Below, piece after piece: positions 50,326 through 63,001 of a stretch of DNA of 64,000 nucleotides. A program made the translations under genes and the position numbers. The stretch comes from Chloroflexota bacterium (GTDB lineage: Bacteria > Chloroflexota > UBA11872). Numbering within the stretch: position 1 is the stretch's first letter; each line of letters begins with the position of its first letter. The notes below the pieces were generated by a model, which did no database searches, was not told the DNA's origin, and worked only from the letters and a program-made list of their open reading frames with translations. The stretch covers positions 1 to 64,000 of the forward strand of contig JAJECS010000027.1 of assembly GCA_022821905.1 (NCBI GenBank), written 5' to 3'.

Positions 50326-50652
50326 TCACGCCTTGGATGGCGTGTTGGCGCCATCCCGAGCGTTGCGCAGCTCCTCTTGCAGGCTCTCCGCGTAGCTGTC
50401 GACGGCGGCGCGCACTCGCTCGATCCGGACGATGGACGGCAGCACGCGTTGGCGCGCGGTCTCCTCAACCGTGTCGTGCATCTGCTCTGTCGAGCGCGCG
50501 GTGCGCCGCAATCCCTGCTTGATCTTCACGGTGGTCTCGATGATGGCAATGGACCCGACCACGCCGCCCACGAACAGCGCCAGGAACAGCACGCAGCCCT
50601 GGATGACCAGGATGATGATTGCCACGTCGCGCGCGACGTCCCACCCGTCCAT
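50326..50652 (-). CDS. small membrane protein (DUF948-like)
   Basis: MDGWDVARDVAIIILVIQGCVLFLALFVGGVVG; ATGA overlap with upstream gene; N-terminus similar to 50901-51188 product. Confidence 0.7.
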   Translation of the reverse strand: MDGWDVARDVAIIILVIQGCVLFLALFVGGVVGSIAIIETTVKIKQGLRRTARSTEQMHDTVEETARQRVLPSIVRIERVRAAVDSYAESLQEELRNARDGANTPSKA

Positions 50653-50897
50653 CAGCGTCGACGCCTTCGCCGTCGCCGCGACCGGCTGCGGCGTCGCCGC
50701 GGCTGGTCGTGCCGCTCTTTGGTCTTACCTTCGGCGGCCTCGGCGGCGCGCTGCGCGGCCTCGCGGGCCTTGCGCAACCTGGCCCCCACCTGCGCGATCA
50801 ACTCGCTGCCGCGCTGGGGCGCGAGCACCGTGCCAATCGCGCCGCCGACGATGAACCCGAGTGCCACGCCGAGCATGATCCAGGCCATGTCCGGCAC
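50652..50897 (-). CDS. YtxH-like small membrane protein with Arg-rich tail
   Basis: WIMLGVALGFIVGGAIGTVLAPQRGSEL ... PRRRRSRSRRRRRRRR. Confidence 0.75.
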   Translation of the reverse strand: MPDMAWIMLGVALGFIVGGAIGTVLAPQRGSELIAQVGARLRKAREAAQRAAEAAEGKTKERHDQPRRRRSRSRRRRRRRR

Positions 50898-50900
50898 CGC

Positions 50901-51188
50901 CTAGCGCCACTGCCCGCGCAGAAGGCTGAGCGCGCGGCGGGCCACGCGAACGCCTCGCGATGTCGTGCGCGAGCCGGCGGCGACGGTTTCCTGCACGCTC
51001 TCGGCGGTGGCGCGAACGGTGTCGACGGTGTCGCGTGCGGAGTCGATGATTGGGGTGACCTCGGCGCGAATCGCCGCGAGCATGCGCCACAGCAGCAGGC
51101 CGGTCGTCGCCAGCATCAGCGCGGCCAGCAGGCCGACCGACGCGAGCACGATGACGGCGATGTCACGGACGACTTCTAGCGCTTCCAC
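50901..51188 (-). CDS. small membrane protein (DUF948-like)
   Basis: MEALEVVRDIAVIVLASVGLLAALMLATTGLLLWRML then amphipathic helix. Confidence 0.7.
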   Translation of the reverse strand: MEALEVVRDIAVIVLASVGLLAALMLATTGLLLWRMLAAIRAEVTPIIDSARDTVDTVRATAESVQETVAAGSRTTSRGVRVARRALSLLRGQWR

Positions 51189-51203: not shown

Positions 51204-53618
51204 CTAGGCGCGCTGAAAGCGCTCCAGGAAACGCGCGGGTTGCACGATGCGCCGAATGAGTCGTTGCCGGATGACCCGCCACGCTTCGTCAACGGCTCGC
51301 CTTTCTGCCCGCGTCACACGGTGCTGACTATAGGTGGCCCGCATGTATGCCACAGCCACCGTCTCGGGCGGACTTGCCCCGTCAGCGCCAGCCGCCATGG
51401 TGTCGGGGAACAGCCACGCGCCCAAGCGCCGCGACACCTCCTGCGGCGTCTCGGACGCCCCGGTATTGTAGCCAGCGCGGCGCGCGTAGCTCACCATCCG
51501 CGCGTAGACCCGCTGCACGCCCGTGCTTGGCTGCTGCAGGCGGTTGCGCGCGAACACCGCGCCAACCGTGGCCAGCACGATTGCCGCCAGCGCGCCGAGA
51601 ACGACGGCGATGCCGACCAGGACGCCGGCGATATTGCCGAGCACCTCGCCAAAGCCGCCCTCCTCGTCGGGCTCAACCGCCGAGAATCCTCCACCCGCGG
51701 AACCGCTCATCAGCTCGAGATCTTCGAGCAAGTCGTCGAAGCTGGGTCCAAGGCCTCCCACAACGTTATCCACGGCAATGCCGTCACCGGCGGCGTCGGT
51801 TTGGCGTTCCACCGGCAGGCGGAACCCCGAAGGCTCGAAGGCCACCCAGCCATACCCCGGAAAATAGACCTCCACCCAGGTATGGGCGTGTTCGGGATTC
51901 ACGAAAAATCGGTTCGTCGCCTGGTCATAGTCGCCGGCCACGAAGCCATTCACGAGCCGGGACGGAATGTCCAGGGCGCGCACCAGGACAGCCATGGTGG
52001 ACGCAATGTTCACGGCTGAACCGCGTCGCGATTCCGTCAGGAAAAAGTCGGTCGCGTCGCGATCGCCGGGGAGCGGTGGAGCATCGACCGCAAACGGGAA
52101 ACGCCGCATGAAGAATTCGATGGCGAGCACGCGATCGAATGCCGTTTCCCCAGCTTCCGCGAAGCGCTGGGCAAGCGCGAGCACGCGATCCGGCATTTCG
52201 GGCAACTCCAGATAGGGCGTGATCCACTCCGGGTATTCCGTAGTGGCTCCCCGGAGCTGCGCGATCGTCGCCCCGGAGAACGTCGAATCCACCGAATAGA
52301 CGAGGCGCTGCCCGACGCGACGCGTGGCGCGGATTGACGCGTAGTCGTCGATCGGCGCGCCGGAGTCGTCCACCTGCGCGAGGTAGCGACGGTTGACCCG
52401 AATGACGTCGCCGGGCGAATACAGCACCGACGTGGTGAAGTCGAGCATTTCCACGTTGGTCCGCACGGGAATGCGCGCCTCGAGCCCAAACGATTCCGCC
52501 AGCGGCGCGCTGGGCTCGCGCTCGGCCAGCTCGCGATACGTGCTGCGCCAGCCCTGTCCGGTGTAGATGTCGAACGTCTGCCCCTTCCAGTAGTTGGGTG
52601 ACGTTGACTCGATGATCATGCTGCCGCGTGGCTGAAACGGTTGCGGACCGCTCAGCCCCATCGACTCACGTCCGGCAAGCGCCGCGCCGGCGGGGTTCGA
52701 GACCCCGCCAAACAAGCGCTGAATGCCCGTCTCCACGTTGCCCCAGCCGTCGCCCAGGTAGGTCCAAAACGCCTCGGCCACGGGATTGCCGGCCGCCCGA
52801 GGCAAGGCCACGGACAGCGACACCACCAAGGCGATCACGATCAGGGCCCACGCGAACGCCGTATTGCCCAGGCCGCGCGAGTAGGTGGTGCCCGACGTGG
52901 CCCACTTCGATTCCAGGGACGTCGTGCGCAGGTGCACGATCAGCGCCAGGGCCGCTGTGAGGAACACGACGAAGGGGATCCAGTCGGGACCGATGTAGGT
53001 CACGTTGATTCCGAGCGCCAGCATGCCCGGGGTCAGGGCCCACAGGGCGCTGCGACGTCGAAACGCCATCCAGCCGGCGAAATACCCCATGCCCCAGGCG
53101 GCCATGGTCATCCAGAAGAGGAAGACGACGTTGTCGCGGCTGACCTGGAACGCGAAGGCCGATTGGAACCAGCCCTCGAGCCGGAAATACAGGTCTCGCA
53201 ACAGCTCCCAGGTTTCGTCGACCGCGGCGTTGAGGGGCGGCTCGCCGCCGAGCGCTCCCGACTGGCGGAGTTGCACCCACTCCACCGTGTCGCCGAACAG
53301 CGCCGCGAAGTTGCGCACGCCGTCGATGGGACCGGGAAGGGCCTCCGACGCGACGACATAGGCCACGGCCAGGTCGCTCACGACGCCGATCGCCACGATC
53401 CAGACCGATGACATGCGGCGCGCGGATAGCCACCACGCGGCTAGCACGGCCACGACCGCCACGGCGAACAGCACGCCCGTTCCAGGCGCCCACCCAACCA
53501 GGTGAATGCTGGCGAGCGGCGCCAGCGTGGCCGCCAGCAACAACCCAAGGGTCAGCAGTGAGCTGGCCGGCAGGGTTGGGAACCGGATACGGCTGGCGGT
53601 CTCGGCGGCCACGCTCAT
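51204..53618 (-). CDS. transglutaminase-like membrane protein (DUF3488/TgpA-like), apparently lacking the catalytic Cys
   Basis: multiple N-terminal TMs; ESRRGSAVNIASTMAVLVRALDIPSRLVNGF ... HAHTWVEVYFPGYGWVAFEPSG; C-terminal DUF4129-like region. Confidence 0.9.
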   Translation of the reverse strand: MSVAAETASRIRFPTLPASSLLTLGLLLAATLAPLASIHLVGWAPGTGVLFAVAVVAVLAAWWLSARRMSSVWIVAIGVVSDLAVAYVVASEALPGPIDGVRNFAALFGDTVEWVQLRQSGALGGEPPLNAAVDETWELLRDLYFRLEGWFQSAFAFQVSRDNVVFLFWMTMAAWGMGYFAGWMAFRRRSALWALTPGMLALGINVTYIGPDWIPFVVFLTAALALIVHLRTTSLESKWATSGTTYSRGLGNTAFAWALIVIALVVSLSVALPRAAGNPVAEAFWTYLGDGWGNVETGIQRLFGGVSNPAGAALAGRESMGLSGPQPFQPRGSMIIESTSPNYWKGQTFDIYTGQGWRSTYRELAEREPSAPLAESFGLEARIPVRTNVEMLDFTTSVLYSPGDVIRVNRRYLAQVDDSGAPIDDYASIRATRRVGQRLVYSVDSTFSGATIAQLRGATTEYPEWITPYLELPEMPDRVLALAQRFAEAGETAFDRVLAIEFFMRRFPFAVDAPPLPGDRDATDFFLTESRRGSAVNIASTMAVLVRALDIPSRLVNGFVAGDYDQATNRFFVNPEHAHTWVEVYFPGYGWVAFEPSGFRLPVERQTDAAGDGIAVDNVVGGLGPSFDDLLEDLELMSGSAGGGFSAVEPDEEGGFGEVLGNIAGVLVGIAVVLGALAAIVLATVGAVFARNRLQQPSTGVQRVYARMVSYARRAGYNTGASETPQEVSRRLGAWLFPDTMAAGADGASPPETVAVAYMRATYSQHRVTRAERRAVDEAWRVIRQRLIRRIVQPARFLERFQRA

Positions 53619-53622
53619 GCGG

Positions 53623-54918
53623 CTATTGGTATGCCAGCGACACCGTCGGTCGCCGCTGCCCCTCCGCCGCGGGCCCGCCGTGCCGGCTGGGCTGCACCGT
53701 CGAGAAGGTTGCGCCCTGGGTCACGCTGGTGAAGGAAACCCCCGCGGTTTCGGCCCCCTCCTTGAGCCCGGCGTTGGAGGGCGCGTCGTCGAATGTCGCG
53801 GCATCCACGCCAATGGCGATCGGATAGACGGCGCGCTGCGCCAGGTGGGTCAGACTTCCGATCCAGGCCGGGTCCGCGGACGGCGAGATGGCGACCAGGC
53901 TGACCCCGCGCCCGAGGATCGGCGCCGCGCTCGCGAGCACGTCGCCGAACGCGACCGTGCCGCGTGCTTGCACGATGGCCAGCGACTCCAGGATTCGCCA
54001 GAGCTGCCGCAGGCCCCGTTGCGGCTCGATGATGTAGCGGGCGCCGCGTCCCTCGGCCAGCAGGCCGACGGATTTGCCGTCGCGCACGAATTGATAGGCA
54101 AGCGAGGAGACGATCTTGACACCGTATTCCTCGGTGGACTCGTCGCCGTGACCGGCCTGCACCGCGGCGTCCAAATCGAGCGCCACCCAAAGACTGGCGG
54201 TCGGCTCGAGGTCGAACTCCTTGACCAGCAGCGTTTCGCGCCGCACCGACGTCGGCCAGTGGATGCGTTTGAGCGGGTCGCCGGGCTGAAATTCGCGCAG
54301 GCCGCCGGCGTCCGTCGTCACCTGCTGGGTCCGCTTCGATGAGCGCGCCGCGCCCACCAGCGTTCCGGCGGGCACGGCCACATCGTGCATTACCGATATC
54401 GGCGGGTAGACCACGATGGTGTTCTCCTGGGCGAGCCGGCGTTCGGCCGTGAACAGGCCAAACGGGTCGCCGACGGTCACGTCCGCCGGTCCGAGCTTGT
54501 AGAGGCCGCGTCGACCCGCTTCGCCATGCGTGCGCCAGCGGCGCGCCCCGCGGCCGCCAAGGCTGATAGCAATGGACGCTCGATATCCGGGGAGCTCGGA
54601 ATAGTCCTCGACTTCGAGCATGAGGATGGGCAGCCGGCTGCCGCTGCGGATCTCGAACTCCTCTTCGATCACGTCGCCGACAGTCGCCCACTGGGTGCGG
54701 AGATTACGCTGGACGGTGAGCCCGCGTGATGCCAGGCGCGTCCAGAGATACGACAGCAGCACAATGCTGAGCAACGCGTACATCAACCAATACGCGATGG
54801 GCGACGTGGTCACCAGTGCCACGACGACGAGCAGGCCAAGCAGCACGATGATGACCGGTCGTTGCAGGGTGACCGCAGGTTTAGGCTGGCTGGCCGCGAC
54901 CGACACGGGGCCCTCCAC
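53623..54918 (-). CDS. DUF58 domain-containing protein
   Basis: LREFQPGDPLKRIHWPTSVRRETLLVKEFDLEPTASLWVALDLD. Confidence 0.92.
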   Translation of the reverse strand: MEGPVSVAASQPKPAVTLQRPVIIVLLGLLVVVALVTTSPIAYWLMYALLSIVLLSYLWTRLASRGLTVQRNLRTQWATVGDVIEEEFEIRSGSRLPILMLEVEDYSELPGYRASIAISLGGRGARRWRTHGEAGRRGLYKLGPADVTVGDPFGLFTAERRLAQENTIVVYPPISVMHDVAVPAGTLVGAARSSKRTQQVTTDAGGLREFQPGDPLKRIHWPTSVRRETLLVKEFDLEPTASLWVALDLDAAVQAGHGDESTEEYGVKIVSSLAYQFVRDGKSVGLLAEGRGARYIIEPQRGLRQLWRILESLAIVQARGTVAFGDVLASAAPILGRGVSLVAISPSADPAWIGSLTHLAQRAVYPIAIGVDAATFDDAPSNAGLKEGAETAGVSFTSVTQGATFSTVQPSRHGGPAAEGQRRPTVSLAYQ

Positions 54919-59668: not shown

Positions 59669-60481
59669 ATGCGGCTGGCCGTTACCACCTATTCCGCGCC
59701 CGCATGGACTATTGACGAGCACGCGCGGGTCGCTCGCGAGATTGGCTGTGACGGCCTCGAAATCCGGATGCTCGCGGGGCAGCCGCTCACGCCCGATCTC
59801 CCGGCCGCTGAGCGTCGACGCATCGCCGACGTTGTTGCGGACGCGGGTCTCGAGATCTGCGTGGTCGGCAGCGACTGCCGCCTGGCGCAACCGGCGGAGC
59901 CGCGCACGTCCGAGGTCGATCGGACGGCGGGATTCATCGAGCTGGCCCGCGAGTGGGGGGCGCCGGTGGTCCGGGTGTTCGGCGGCGCGCAGAGTGCCGA
60001 CGCGCCGCGGGCGGAGGCGGACGCGTGGGTTGCGGAGGGTCTGCGCGCGGCCGCGGAACATGCCGCACCGCACGGGATTCACGTGGCGTTGGAAACCCAC
60101 GACGTGTTCAACTCCGCGGTGCGGGTCGGCGGCATCGTGCGCGCCGCGGCGCATCCCAACGCCGCCGTGGTGTGGGATCTGGGGCATCCCCACCGCGCGG
60201 GTGAGAGCGTCGCCCAGGCCTGGGCGGCCATCGGCCCGTTCGTGGTTCACGTCCACGTCAAGGACATCGTCCGGACCGACGACGAGCGCGAGTGGGAAAG
60301 CGTCGTTGCCGGCCGGGGTGAAGTTCCGATTGCCGAGATGCTCGGCGTCCTCCGCCGCGCCGGATACGGCGGTTACCTATCGACCGAATGGGAGCCGCGC
60401 GACGCCCGAGCGGGAGGCGGACGCAAGGCGGCGCTGGCGCAGCACGCCGCCCATCTACGGGGGATCCTGGAAACCGCCTAA
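59669..60481 (+). CDS. sugar phosphate isomerase/epimerase
   Basis: MRLAVTTYSAPAWTIDEHARVAREIGCDGLEIRM, ALETHDVF, HVHVKDI. Confidence 0.88.
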   Translation: MRLAVTTYSAPAWTIDEHARVAREIGCDGLEIRMLAGQPLTPDLPAAERRRIADVVADAGLEICVVGSDCRLAQPAEPRTSEVDRTAGFIELAREWGAPVVRVFGGAQSADAPRAEADAWVAEGLRAAAEHAAPHGIHVALETHDVFNSAVRVGGIVRAAAHPNAAVVWDLGHPHRAGESVAQAWAAIGPFVVHVHVKDIVRTDDEREWESVVAGRGEVPIAEMLGVLRRAGYGGYLSTEWEPRDARAGGGRKAALAQHAAHLRGILETA

Positions 60482-61833
60482 CGCGCGAGGTCGCGCAGGG
60501 TGCGTCGCAGCGGTCGTTCATCGCGCGGCAGCACCGTGCGCACGTCGAGCCACACGTCGTCGTCGCGCACTCGGGCAATCACCGGCGGGTCCGCGTGGCG
60601 TAGACGCGCGGCCAGCGCCTGTCCGCCGCCCGCGAGTCGAACGGCGAAGCTGGGAAGCACCTGGCCCGGAAGCGATCCGCCGCCGACCGCCGAGTCCGAC
60701 GCCTCGACGCTGGCGCGGGCGACGCCGCGCGCCAGCCGGCGCGCACGGGCGCGAAGATCGGCGGACTGAGCGGAGATCATCTGCCAGACCGGAATGGCGG
60801 TCTCGGCTTCGCCCAGCAGGTAGTGGGCGAGCGTGGCCTGGAGCGCCGCCAGCGTCAGGGCGTCGCAGCGCAACGCGCGGGCCAGCGGGCGACGGGCGAT
60901 CCGCTCCACGTGGGCGGCATTCCCGGCCGCGATGCCGGCTTGCGGTCCTCCCAGCAGCTTGTCGCCAGAAAAGGTCACCACGTCGCAGCCCGCGGCCAGC
61001 GCATCCTGCACGCGCGGTTCGTTGACCAGGCCATACGGCGTCGGGTCCAGCAAGGTGCCCGAGCCAAGATCGCCAATGAGTGGCACGGCATGCTCGTGCG
61101 CGAGATGCGCCAGCGCCGCAAGCTCCGGCGACTCGGTGAAGCCGATCTGCGCAAAGTTGCTGCGGTGCACGTGGAGGATCGCCGTCGTGCGATCGCTCAG
61201 CGCCTCCGCGTAGTCTTCGATCCGGGTGCGATTGGTCGTGCCCACGTCGCGCAGCACCGCGCCGCTGGCGGCCAGAATGTCCGGCACGCGGAATCCGCCG
61301 CCGATCTCGATTGCCTCGCCGCGGCTCACCAGCACCTCGCCGCCCGCCGCCAGCGCTTCCAGCGCCAGGAAGGTGGCCCCGGCGTTGTTGTTGAGCGCGA
61401 GAGCGGCCGGCGCGCCGGTGATTTCGCGCAGGCTCGCGGTCACCGCCGCGCCGCGCCCGCCCCGCCGACCGGTGTCGAGATCCATCTCCAGCGCGGCGTA
61501 TCCCGCCGCCGCCCCTTCAACCGCCGCGAGCGCCCGGTCGCTCAGCGGTGCGCGTCCCAGATTCGTGTGAACGATCACGCCGGTGGCATTGATCACGCGC
61601 CGTGGGGCATCTCGCACCAGCAAGGCCGCCCGTAGGGCGGCGGCCTCGGCGAGAGACGCCAAGCTTGGGGTGGCGCTGCCTCGCCCGATGGCGTCGCGGG
61701 CAGTTGCGATCTCCGCGCGTGCGGCGGAGACGAGCAGGGCCGGCGGCAGCTCGCCGTGCACGGCTGCCGTCTGCGCAATCCGATCCACCGACGGCAGGTC
61801 CCGCAGGGACGCGCCGCCGTCGCTAGGCGCCAT
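60478..61833 (-). CDS. selA: L-seryl-tRNA(Sec) selenium transferase
   Basis: RRVINATGVIVHTNLGRAPLS, LALNNNAGATFLAL, FSGDKLLGGPQAGI PLP-lysine motif. Confidence 0.93.
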   Translation of the reverse strand: MAPSDGGASLRDLPSVDRIAQTAAVHGELPPALLVSAARAEIATARDAIGRGSATPSLASLAEAAALRAALLVRDAPRRVINATGVIVHTNLGRAPLSDRALAAVEGAAAGYAALEMDLDTGRRGGRGAAVTASLREITGAPAALALNNNAGATFLALEALAAGGEVLVSRGEAIEIGGGFRVPDILAASGAVLRDVGTTNRTRIEDYAEALSDRTTAILHVHRSNFAQIGFTESPELAALAHLAHEHAVPLIGDLGSGTLLDPTPYGLVNEPRVQDALAAGCDVVTFSGDKLLGGPQAGIAAGNAAHVERIARRPLARALRCDALTLAALQATLAHYLLGEAETAIPVWQMISAQSADLRARARRLARGVARASVEASDSAVGGGSLPGQVLPSFAVRLAGGGQALAARLRHADPPVIARVRDDDVWLDVRTVLPRDERPLRRTLRDLAR

Positions 61834-63001
61834 ACTTCGCGAGGCGCCGCCCATGCGCCAGCATGAGCGGCAGGATCGATCCGGCTGGAATGTGACCAAG
61901 GCCGCCGTGAAAGCACGCGGGCTCGCTGAACTTCTCGACGCTGTCCGGTCTATTCAGCTCCCCCAACAGGACCACCGGCACCGGATGCCAGGAATGCGCC
62001 CGTAGCTTGGCCGGCGTCGAGTGGTCGCCCGTGACGACCAGGACATCAGGCTTGAGGGCGCGAACCCGCGGCAGCCATTGGTCGACCGCCTCGATGGCGC
62101 GGGCCTTGCCGTCAAAGTCCCCATCTTCGCCAAGCGTGTCCGTGTCCTTGATGTGCACGAAAAACAGGTCGAAGTCGTCCCAGGCCTCCTCAAGCGTCGC
62201 AATCTGGTTCCCGGGCTCTTCGGTGACGGGCAGCACCGTCATCCCCACGGCGCGCGCGACGCCGCGGTACATGGGATACACGGCCAGGCACGCCGCTCGC
62301 AGCTGGAAGCGCGACTCCAGCGATGGCAATGATCGATGCTGGCCGTATCCCCGCATGAGCACGAAATTTGCCGGCTGCTGGTCGCCGATGCTCTGCCGGA
62401 CCCGGTCGGTAAACCCGGCGAGGATCCGACTGGTGTGTGCGGCTGCGGGATGCAGTGCGTCGGGGGAAAGTGGCGGCACGCCGATCGCCTGCGGGTCGGT
62501 CTCGCGGACGCGCGGGTCGAGTCCCTCGCCTCGAAGCACGAGCACCGCACGATGTCGCCGCTCCGCGGCGAGCTCTAGGCCGACGTCCGGCGCGTGGATG
62601 CCGTTGAGCTTCGCGATGAGCTCCTGGTTCAACTCCGTGGAGATGCGACCGGCTCGCCGGTCGGCCACATTGCCGTCGGCATCGAGGGTGCAGAAGTTCA
62701 ACCGCACCGCCAGGTCGTGGTCGCCCAATTCGATCCCGAGCCCACTTGCCGACAGCGGTCCGCGGCCGATGCTGTCGGCGACCGGGTCATAGCCGAACAG
62801 CGCCAGGTGGGCGGGACCGCTGCCCGGTGTGATCCCGCGATCCATCGGATGGTGGACGCCGGTGACGCCTTCGCGCGCAATCTGGTCGAGGTTCGGGGTG
62901 TTCGCCGCTTCGAGCTCGGTCGGTCCTCCCGGAACAAGCGGCAGTCCACCAAGGCCGTCAAGGACGATCAGCACTAACTTGGTCGCCGCTGGCTGCGCCA
63001 A
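61823..63001 (-). CDS. apgM: 2,3-bisphosphoglycerate-independent phosphoglycerate mutase, archaeal-type (ApgM-like); start uncertain
   Basis: [80 protein letters not shown]. Confidence 0.9.

Follow-up and report, generated by a model that had tools for sequence, protein, structure and literature searches.

TgpA, a protein of Pseudomonas aeruginosa, has been reported to be essential, whereas a connection of its physiological role with the cell wall was only a suggestion; its purified periplasmic domain has been assayed for transglutaminase activity (PMC3507681). Inactive transglutaminase domains have been described as well. In RloB, also of P. aeruginosa, such a domain is fused to seven membrane helices, and mutations rescue the phenotype of a protease mutant (PMC12239564), while the inactive domains of polymorphic toxins have been proposed to act in peptide binding and cell-surface anchoring (PMC3482391). 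Here we analyze a stretch of 64,000 nucleotides from a Chloroflexota bacterium (assembly GCA_022821905.1, contig JAJECS010000027.1), which we call the window, and in it a gene for a TgpA-type membrane protein with alanine in place of the catalytic cysteine. We argue that this protein is probably a catalytically dead, selectively maintained member of the TgpA family, fixed in its order, which serves as an extracytoplasmic binding scaffold together with a DUF58 protein.

Alanine at the position of the catalytic cysteine

The gene occupies 51204..53618 on the minus strand as a single open frame of 804 codons, and we call it TgpA-type on the basis of that frame and of the Pfam domains of its product. 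An earlier note on this DNA, made from the letters alone, had given the same coordinates, which are correct (the strand is minus), and had proposed that the encoded protein has exchanged its catalytic cysteine for alanine while retaining the histidine. Both proposals hold. The frame around the active site reads ESRRGSAVNIASTMAVLVRALDIPSR...NPEHAHTWVEVYFPGYGWVAFEPSG, and residues 532-539 are encoded by CGC GGT TCA GCC GTG AAC ATT GCG. A search with a family profile leads to a single solved relative, 6g49, which is the TgpA periplasmic domain of P. aeruginosa (E-value 3.9e-36); its GFCAHYAG is aligned with GSAVNIAS of the window protein, with residue 535 on the catalytic cysteine. The nucleophile column is therefore Ala535, whose GCC codon lies at 52014..52016 (-). 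The triad histidine is kept as His579 (51882..51884 (-)) and the acid position is Glu595 (51834..51836 (-)). Thus, the triad columns read Ala-His-Glu, as opposed to Cys-His-Asp. There is no cysteine anywhere in the 804 amino acids of the protein, which rules out that the cysteine has moved to another site.

The acid position, where the earlier note had seen an anomaly in FEPSG instead of FDPT, calls for a different reading. The window protein has glutamate at this position (FEPS), and so do 49 of 51 cysteine-bearing representatives. Since glutamate is the norm in the phylum, Glu595 is no sign of degeneration, and we reject the changed acid as a mark of decay.

An AlphaFold2 model built from 32 alignment rows has a mean predicted local distance difference test score (pLDDT) of 77.6, rising to about 90 over the core. 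In this model Ala535 opens a helix (535-548), His579 stands at the start of a strand (578-586), and Glu595 lies just past another (590-594); as modelled, this placement is the order of the papain/transglutaminase site. The top Foldseek matches are the TgpA structures 6g4h (E-value 3.8e-17) and 6g49 (7.1e-17), with a template modelling score (target) of 0.71. The structure prediction that the earlier note had suggested as a check thus returns a confident core that matches TgpA.

Three regions can be assigned along the protein. The TgpA_N region (residues 29-446, 52281..53534 (-)) comprises, in the model, N-terminal membrane helices and a beta-rich extracytoplasmic part; besides these modelled helices and strands, it is suggested by a match to PF11992 of 28.2 bits (E-value 1.2e-6, just below the cut-off of 30) that covers positions 4-327 of the 333 in the profile. 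The transglutaminase core (residues 481-596, 51831..52178 (-)) scores 71.5 bits against PF01841, where the Pfam cut-off is 23, and is delimited also by its pLDDT, its match to 6g4h and 6g49, and the substitution rates reported below. A C-terminal DUF4129 domain (residues 705-781, 51276..51506 (-)) scores 26.5 bits against PF13559 (cut-off 24.8), and a Pfam scan of the protein finds nothing beyond these three. The window protein is therefore a member of the TgpA (DUF3488/transglutaminase) family, since its fold, its core and its DUF58 partner all fit, whereas its triad does not. On account of the triad, we class it within TgpA as a catalytically dead branch and do not call it a transglutaminase.

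Conservation within the order and selection

Our sample of the order comprises 24 genomes, 23 of which carry a TgpA-type gene, and in all 23 the cysteine column holds alanine or serine. In the genus of the window it is alanine in 6/6 genomes, and its codon varies synonymously between GCC and GCG; we conclude that Ala535 is not an error. Alanine and serine moreover replace one another within a single family, f1, so that neither a thiol nor a hydroxyl group is required at this column, and serine is ruled out as a conserved nucleophile.

We measured selection as the ratio of nonsynonymous to synonymous substitution rates (dN/dS), taken as the mean over pairs of the six genomes of the genus. Over the whole gene the ratio is 0.087; the linker reaches 0.229, and the transglutaminase core has 0.023, the lowest value of all parts. 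Every part of the protein is thus under purifying selection, and its strength, greatest in the core, excludes decay. Across the order, and in two further families with alanine or serine (f4 and f28), residues H579, W581, E583, E595, P596 and S597 are invariant. The nucleophile elbow has drifted in the family of the window, where it reads GSAVN or GHATQ.

No second TgpA-type protein was found in the window's genome, in which the best other transglutaminase core belongs to a 295-amino-acid protein of the alpha-E type, adjoining an alpha-E gene, with Cys-His-Asp intact. Likewise, among the matches listed for 32 genomes with the cysteine-less protein, no second full-length TgpA-type frame is evident, and the extra matches are mostly small frames. 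The earlier note had described the protein as a maintained pseudoenzyme, to be checked by aligning orthologs at the cysteine column and by looking for a cysteine-bearing paralog. Cysteine-less orthologs, the lack of a cysteine-bearing TgpA paralog in the genome and strong purifying selection all agree with that description.

Loss of the cysteine across Chloroflexota

In a sample of the phylum, 72 of 80 further loci have kept the cysteine. Apart from the order itself, it is missing from families f28 (Ser, Ser and Ala), f17 (Ser, one genome) and f4 (Ala). The loci of f28 (L196, L201, L209) and of f17 (L053) keep the histidine and the glutamate, and in f28 genes for MoxR and DUF58 lie upstream of the TgpA-type gene. 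A strongly supported clade that includes several Dehalococcoidia records has departed further from the triad: its cysteine is always replaced by phenylalanine, its histidine by tyrosine, phenylalanine or tryptophan, and its acid by asparagine or serine. Here the motif G-Y-F-D-Y, together with W581 and E583, is invariant in 14 of 14 rows. The loci of this clade (L099, L101, L102, L105-L108, L112, L118, L119, L122, L123, L133, L179, L181, L185, L187 and L188) have MoxR and DUF58 genes upstream.

We counted these losses on a tree of 81 representatives from which the active-site columns had been left out. The best topology requires five changes, four of which are made necessary by branches with good support. 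On that tree the order and f4 are separate (90/88), although a single loss shared by the two is not rejected (approximately unbiased test, p-AU 0.137). Since the downstream genes that they share, described below, fit one loss, we count the order and f4 as one, leaving four. The sequences thus indicate at least four losses of the cysteine within Chloroflexota, and five on the best tree; the loss in f17 is represented by a single genome.

The gene neighbourhood

As the earlier note had observed, both the C-terminal domain and the pairing with DUF58 are intact. The DUF58 partner gene (53623..54918 (-); 431 amino acids, no cysteine; PF01882, 1.9e-14) is separated from the TgpA-type gene by a gap of 4 nucleotides. 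DUF58 is the upstream neighbour in the cysteine-less loci; the neighbour rows marked 'down' in our flank comparison stem from overlapping stop-to-stop frames. A single DUF58 was found in the window's genome, and within the genus the gene has a dN/dS of 0.085. The DUF58 metal site (DxSxS) gives no information on a parallel degeneration, since its serines are missing from almost every Chloroflexota DUF58 protein seen, cysteine-bearing or not. None of the 12 genomes tested that are without a TgpA-type gene has a DUF58 match over the cut-off. One of the 12 is G021 (same order), a small genome of 1.9 Mb, from which a true MoxR is missing as well. MoxR, which is unlinked in the window's genome, does occur in each further TgpA-bearing member tested, but not in the upstream flanks of the TgpA-type loci of the order.

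Downstream of the TgpA-type gene, after 15 nucleotides, a GTG codon starts the gene for a DUF948-like one-helix membrane protein (50901..51188 (-); 95 amino acids), assigned by a weak match to PF06103 (E-value 0.0045); the protein is free of cysteine and its gene has a dN/dS of 0.079. There follow a small YtxH-like protein (50652..50888 (-); 78 amino acids), whose match to PF12732 of 30.9 bits (E-value 3.7e-7) is below the cut-off of 37.5, and a second DUF948-like one-helix protein (50326..50652 (-); 108 amino acids), whose start overlaps the preceding stop. Relatives of the latter, retrieved with an iterated profile, occupy the equivalent position in the order and in f4. In this class, the three small proteins were seen solely beside cysteine-less TgpA genes. 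The immediate downstream neighbour is a DUF948-like gene in all 24 cysteine-less loci of the class that were checked (19/19 named loci of the order and 5/5 of f4). This holds for 0/10 of its cysteine-bearing loci, which have the nearest such gene at a distance of 4.8 kb. Behind this correlation with the loss of the cysteine stand one or two evolutionary events.

Elsewhere in the window, the frame at 60478-61899 (-) looks by sequence like SelA, the selenocysteine synthase; a genome that encodes it would be expected to support the making of selenoproteins.

Discussion

Since the cysteine is lost and yet no part is more strictly preserved than the core, the window protein is probably a binding scaffold and not an enzyme. 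Judging from sequence, its most likely function would be that of an extracytoplasmic peptide-binding scaffold in a membrane system of the MoxR/DUF58 type. By homology to TgpA and from the predicted helices, the core would sit outside the membrane, held by the N-terminal helices and one C-terminal helix. There its former substrate groove may take up a peptide, a cell-wall stem peptide or a partner protein, with no turnover, and the C-terminal helix might relay the bound state to DUF58 and to the DUF4129 domain on the inner side. MoxR would act in trans, and the downstream DUF948-like and YtxH-like proteins are probably further subunits of the complex.

Several points weigh against this proposal. 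The TgpA_N score is slightly below the Pfam cut-off, and MoxR in the window's genome is unlinked, on another contig (C31). The related sequences are uncultured Chloroflexi assemblies, and those used here include metagenome-assembled genomes. The retained histidine and glutamate could be structural as opposed to ligand-binding; the ligand and the binding partner are putative, and the inactivity is predicted.

The binding scaffold has to be weighed against other explanations of the same patterns. That the gene is decaying, or that its alanine is a one-codon error of sequencing or assembly, is scarcely credible in view of the open frame, the alanine or serine in 23 genomes, the synonymous variation of the codon and the dN/dS of the whole gene; we found nothing in its favour, and the alignment of orthologs refutes it. 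A domain that still catalyzes a hydrolase or transferase reaction, whether with a serine nucleophile, with water activated by the histidine and glutamate, or with a nucleophile supplied by a partner, could account for the invariance of those two residues in the clades with alanine or serine, and for the serine of some members. We nevertheless consider it quite improbable, given that the exchange of serine and alanine within one family leaves no need for a hydroxyl, and that DUF58 and the 95-amino-acid protein are both free of cysteine. We are more doubtful still that the chemistry has moved to a separate cysteine-bearing transglutaminase, to which the window protein would deliver substrate. 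The genome does encode the 295-amino-acid protein with its intact triad, but this is a separate, alpha-E type protein, and no counterpart over the threshold was found in G010 and G022, which have the cysteine-less protein only and are both incomplete.

The transglutaminase domain might, finally, be only a structural spacer or folding unit, with the membrane helices, DUF4129 and DUF58 doing the work. Purifying selection on all parts of the protein and the drift of the nucleophile elbow would both suit such a role. Yet a passive part would be expected neither to be the most constrained of all nor to keep the full pocket row H-W-E-EPS, and we regard the spacer as unlikely.

Returning to the binding scaffold, the loss of the nucleophile on at least four occasions, with the protein and its DUF58 partner kept, suggests that part of the job of the TgpA family is not chemistry. 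A stronger form of this idea, which we put forward only tentatively, is that TgpA proteins paired with DUF58 can do without catalysis in their core function, the fold being basically a ligand-binding sensor or scaffold. If so, the chemistry would have been given up separately in several Chloroflexota lineages, one of which swapped the whole triad for Phe-Tyr-Asn, and the lineage of the window would have built the TgpA fold into a membrane complex with DUF948-like and YtxH-like subunits. The question is then raised whether a catalytically dead TgpA still performs essential work. Annotation pipelines would label the cysteine-less proteins active enzymes, and we found no report of them in the open-access literature, subscription papers being outside the search.

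Among known systems, the precedent is RloB, a membrane transglutaminase that is inactive and yet has a phenotype (PMC12239564), but it belongs to another family, and its operon contains an aspartic protease and an ATP-grasp protein; the window protein matches only TgpA_N, Transglut_core and DUF4129, and its neighbours are DUF58 and the DUF948-like and YtxH-like genes. The polymorphic-toxin domains have also lost the triad (PMC3482391), but they precede RHS repeats in secreted toxins, whereas the window protein has several membrane helices, stands in a DUF58 operon and has no toxin part. In the bifidobacterial PFNA operon, which combines DUF58 and a transglutaminase with MoxR, DUF58 likewise adjoins the transglutaminase gene (PMC8430577, PMC12067865); the operon of the window differs in that MoxR is absent, the catalytic cysteine is lost and DUF948-like and YtxH-like genes lie downstream. 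The best match in both sequence and fold is TgpA itself (PA2873; 6g49, 6g4h), which shares the probable TgpA_N membrane part, the extracytoplasmic core and the homologous active-site columns, and which differs in its intact triad, where the window protein has alanine for cysteine and glutamate for aspartate.
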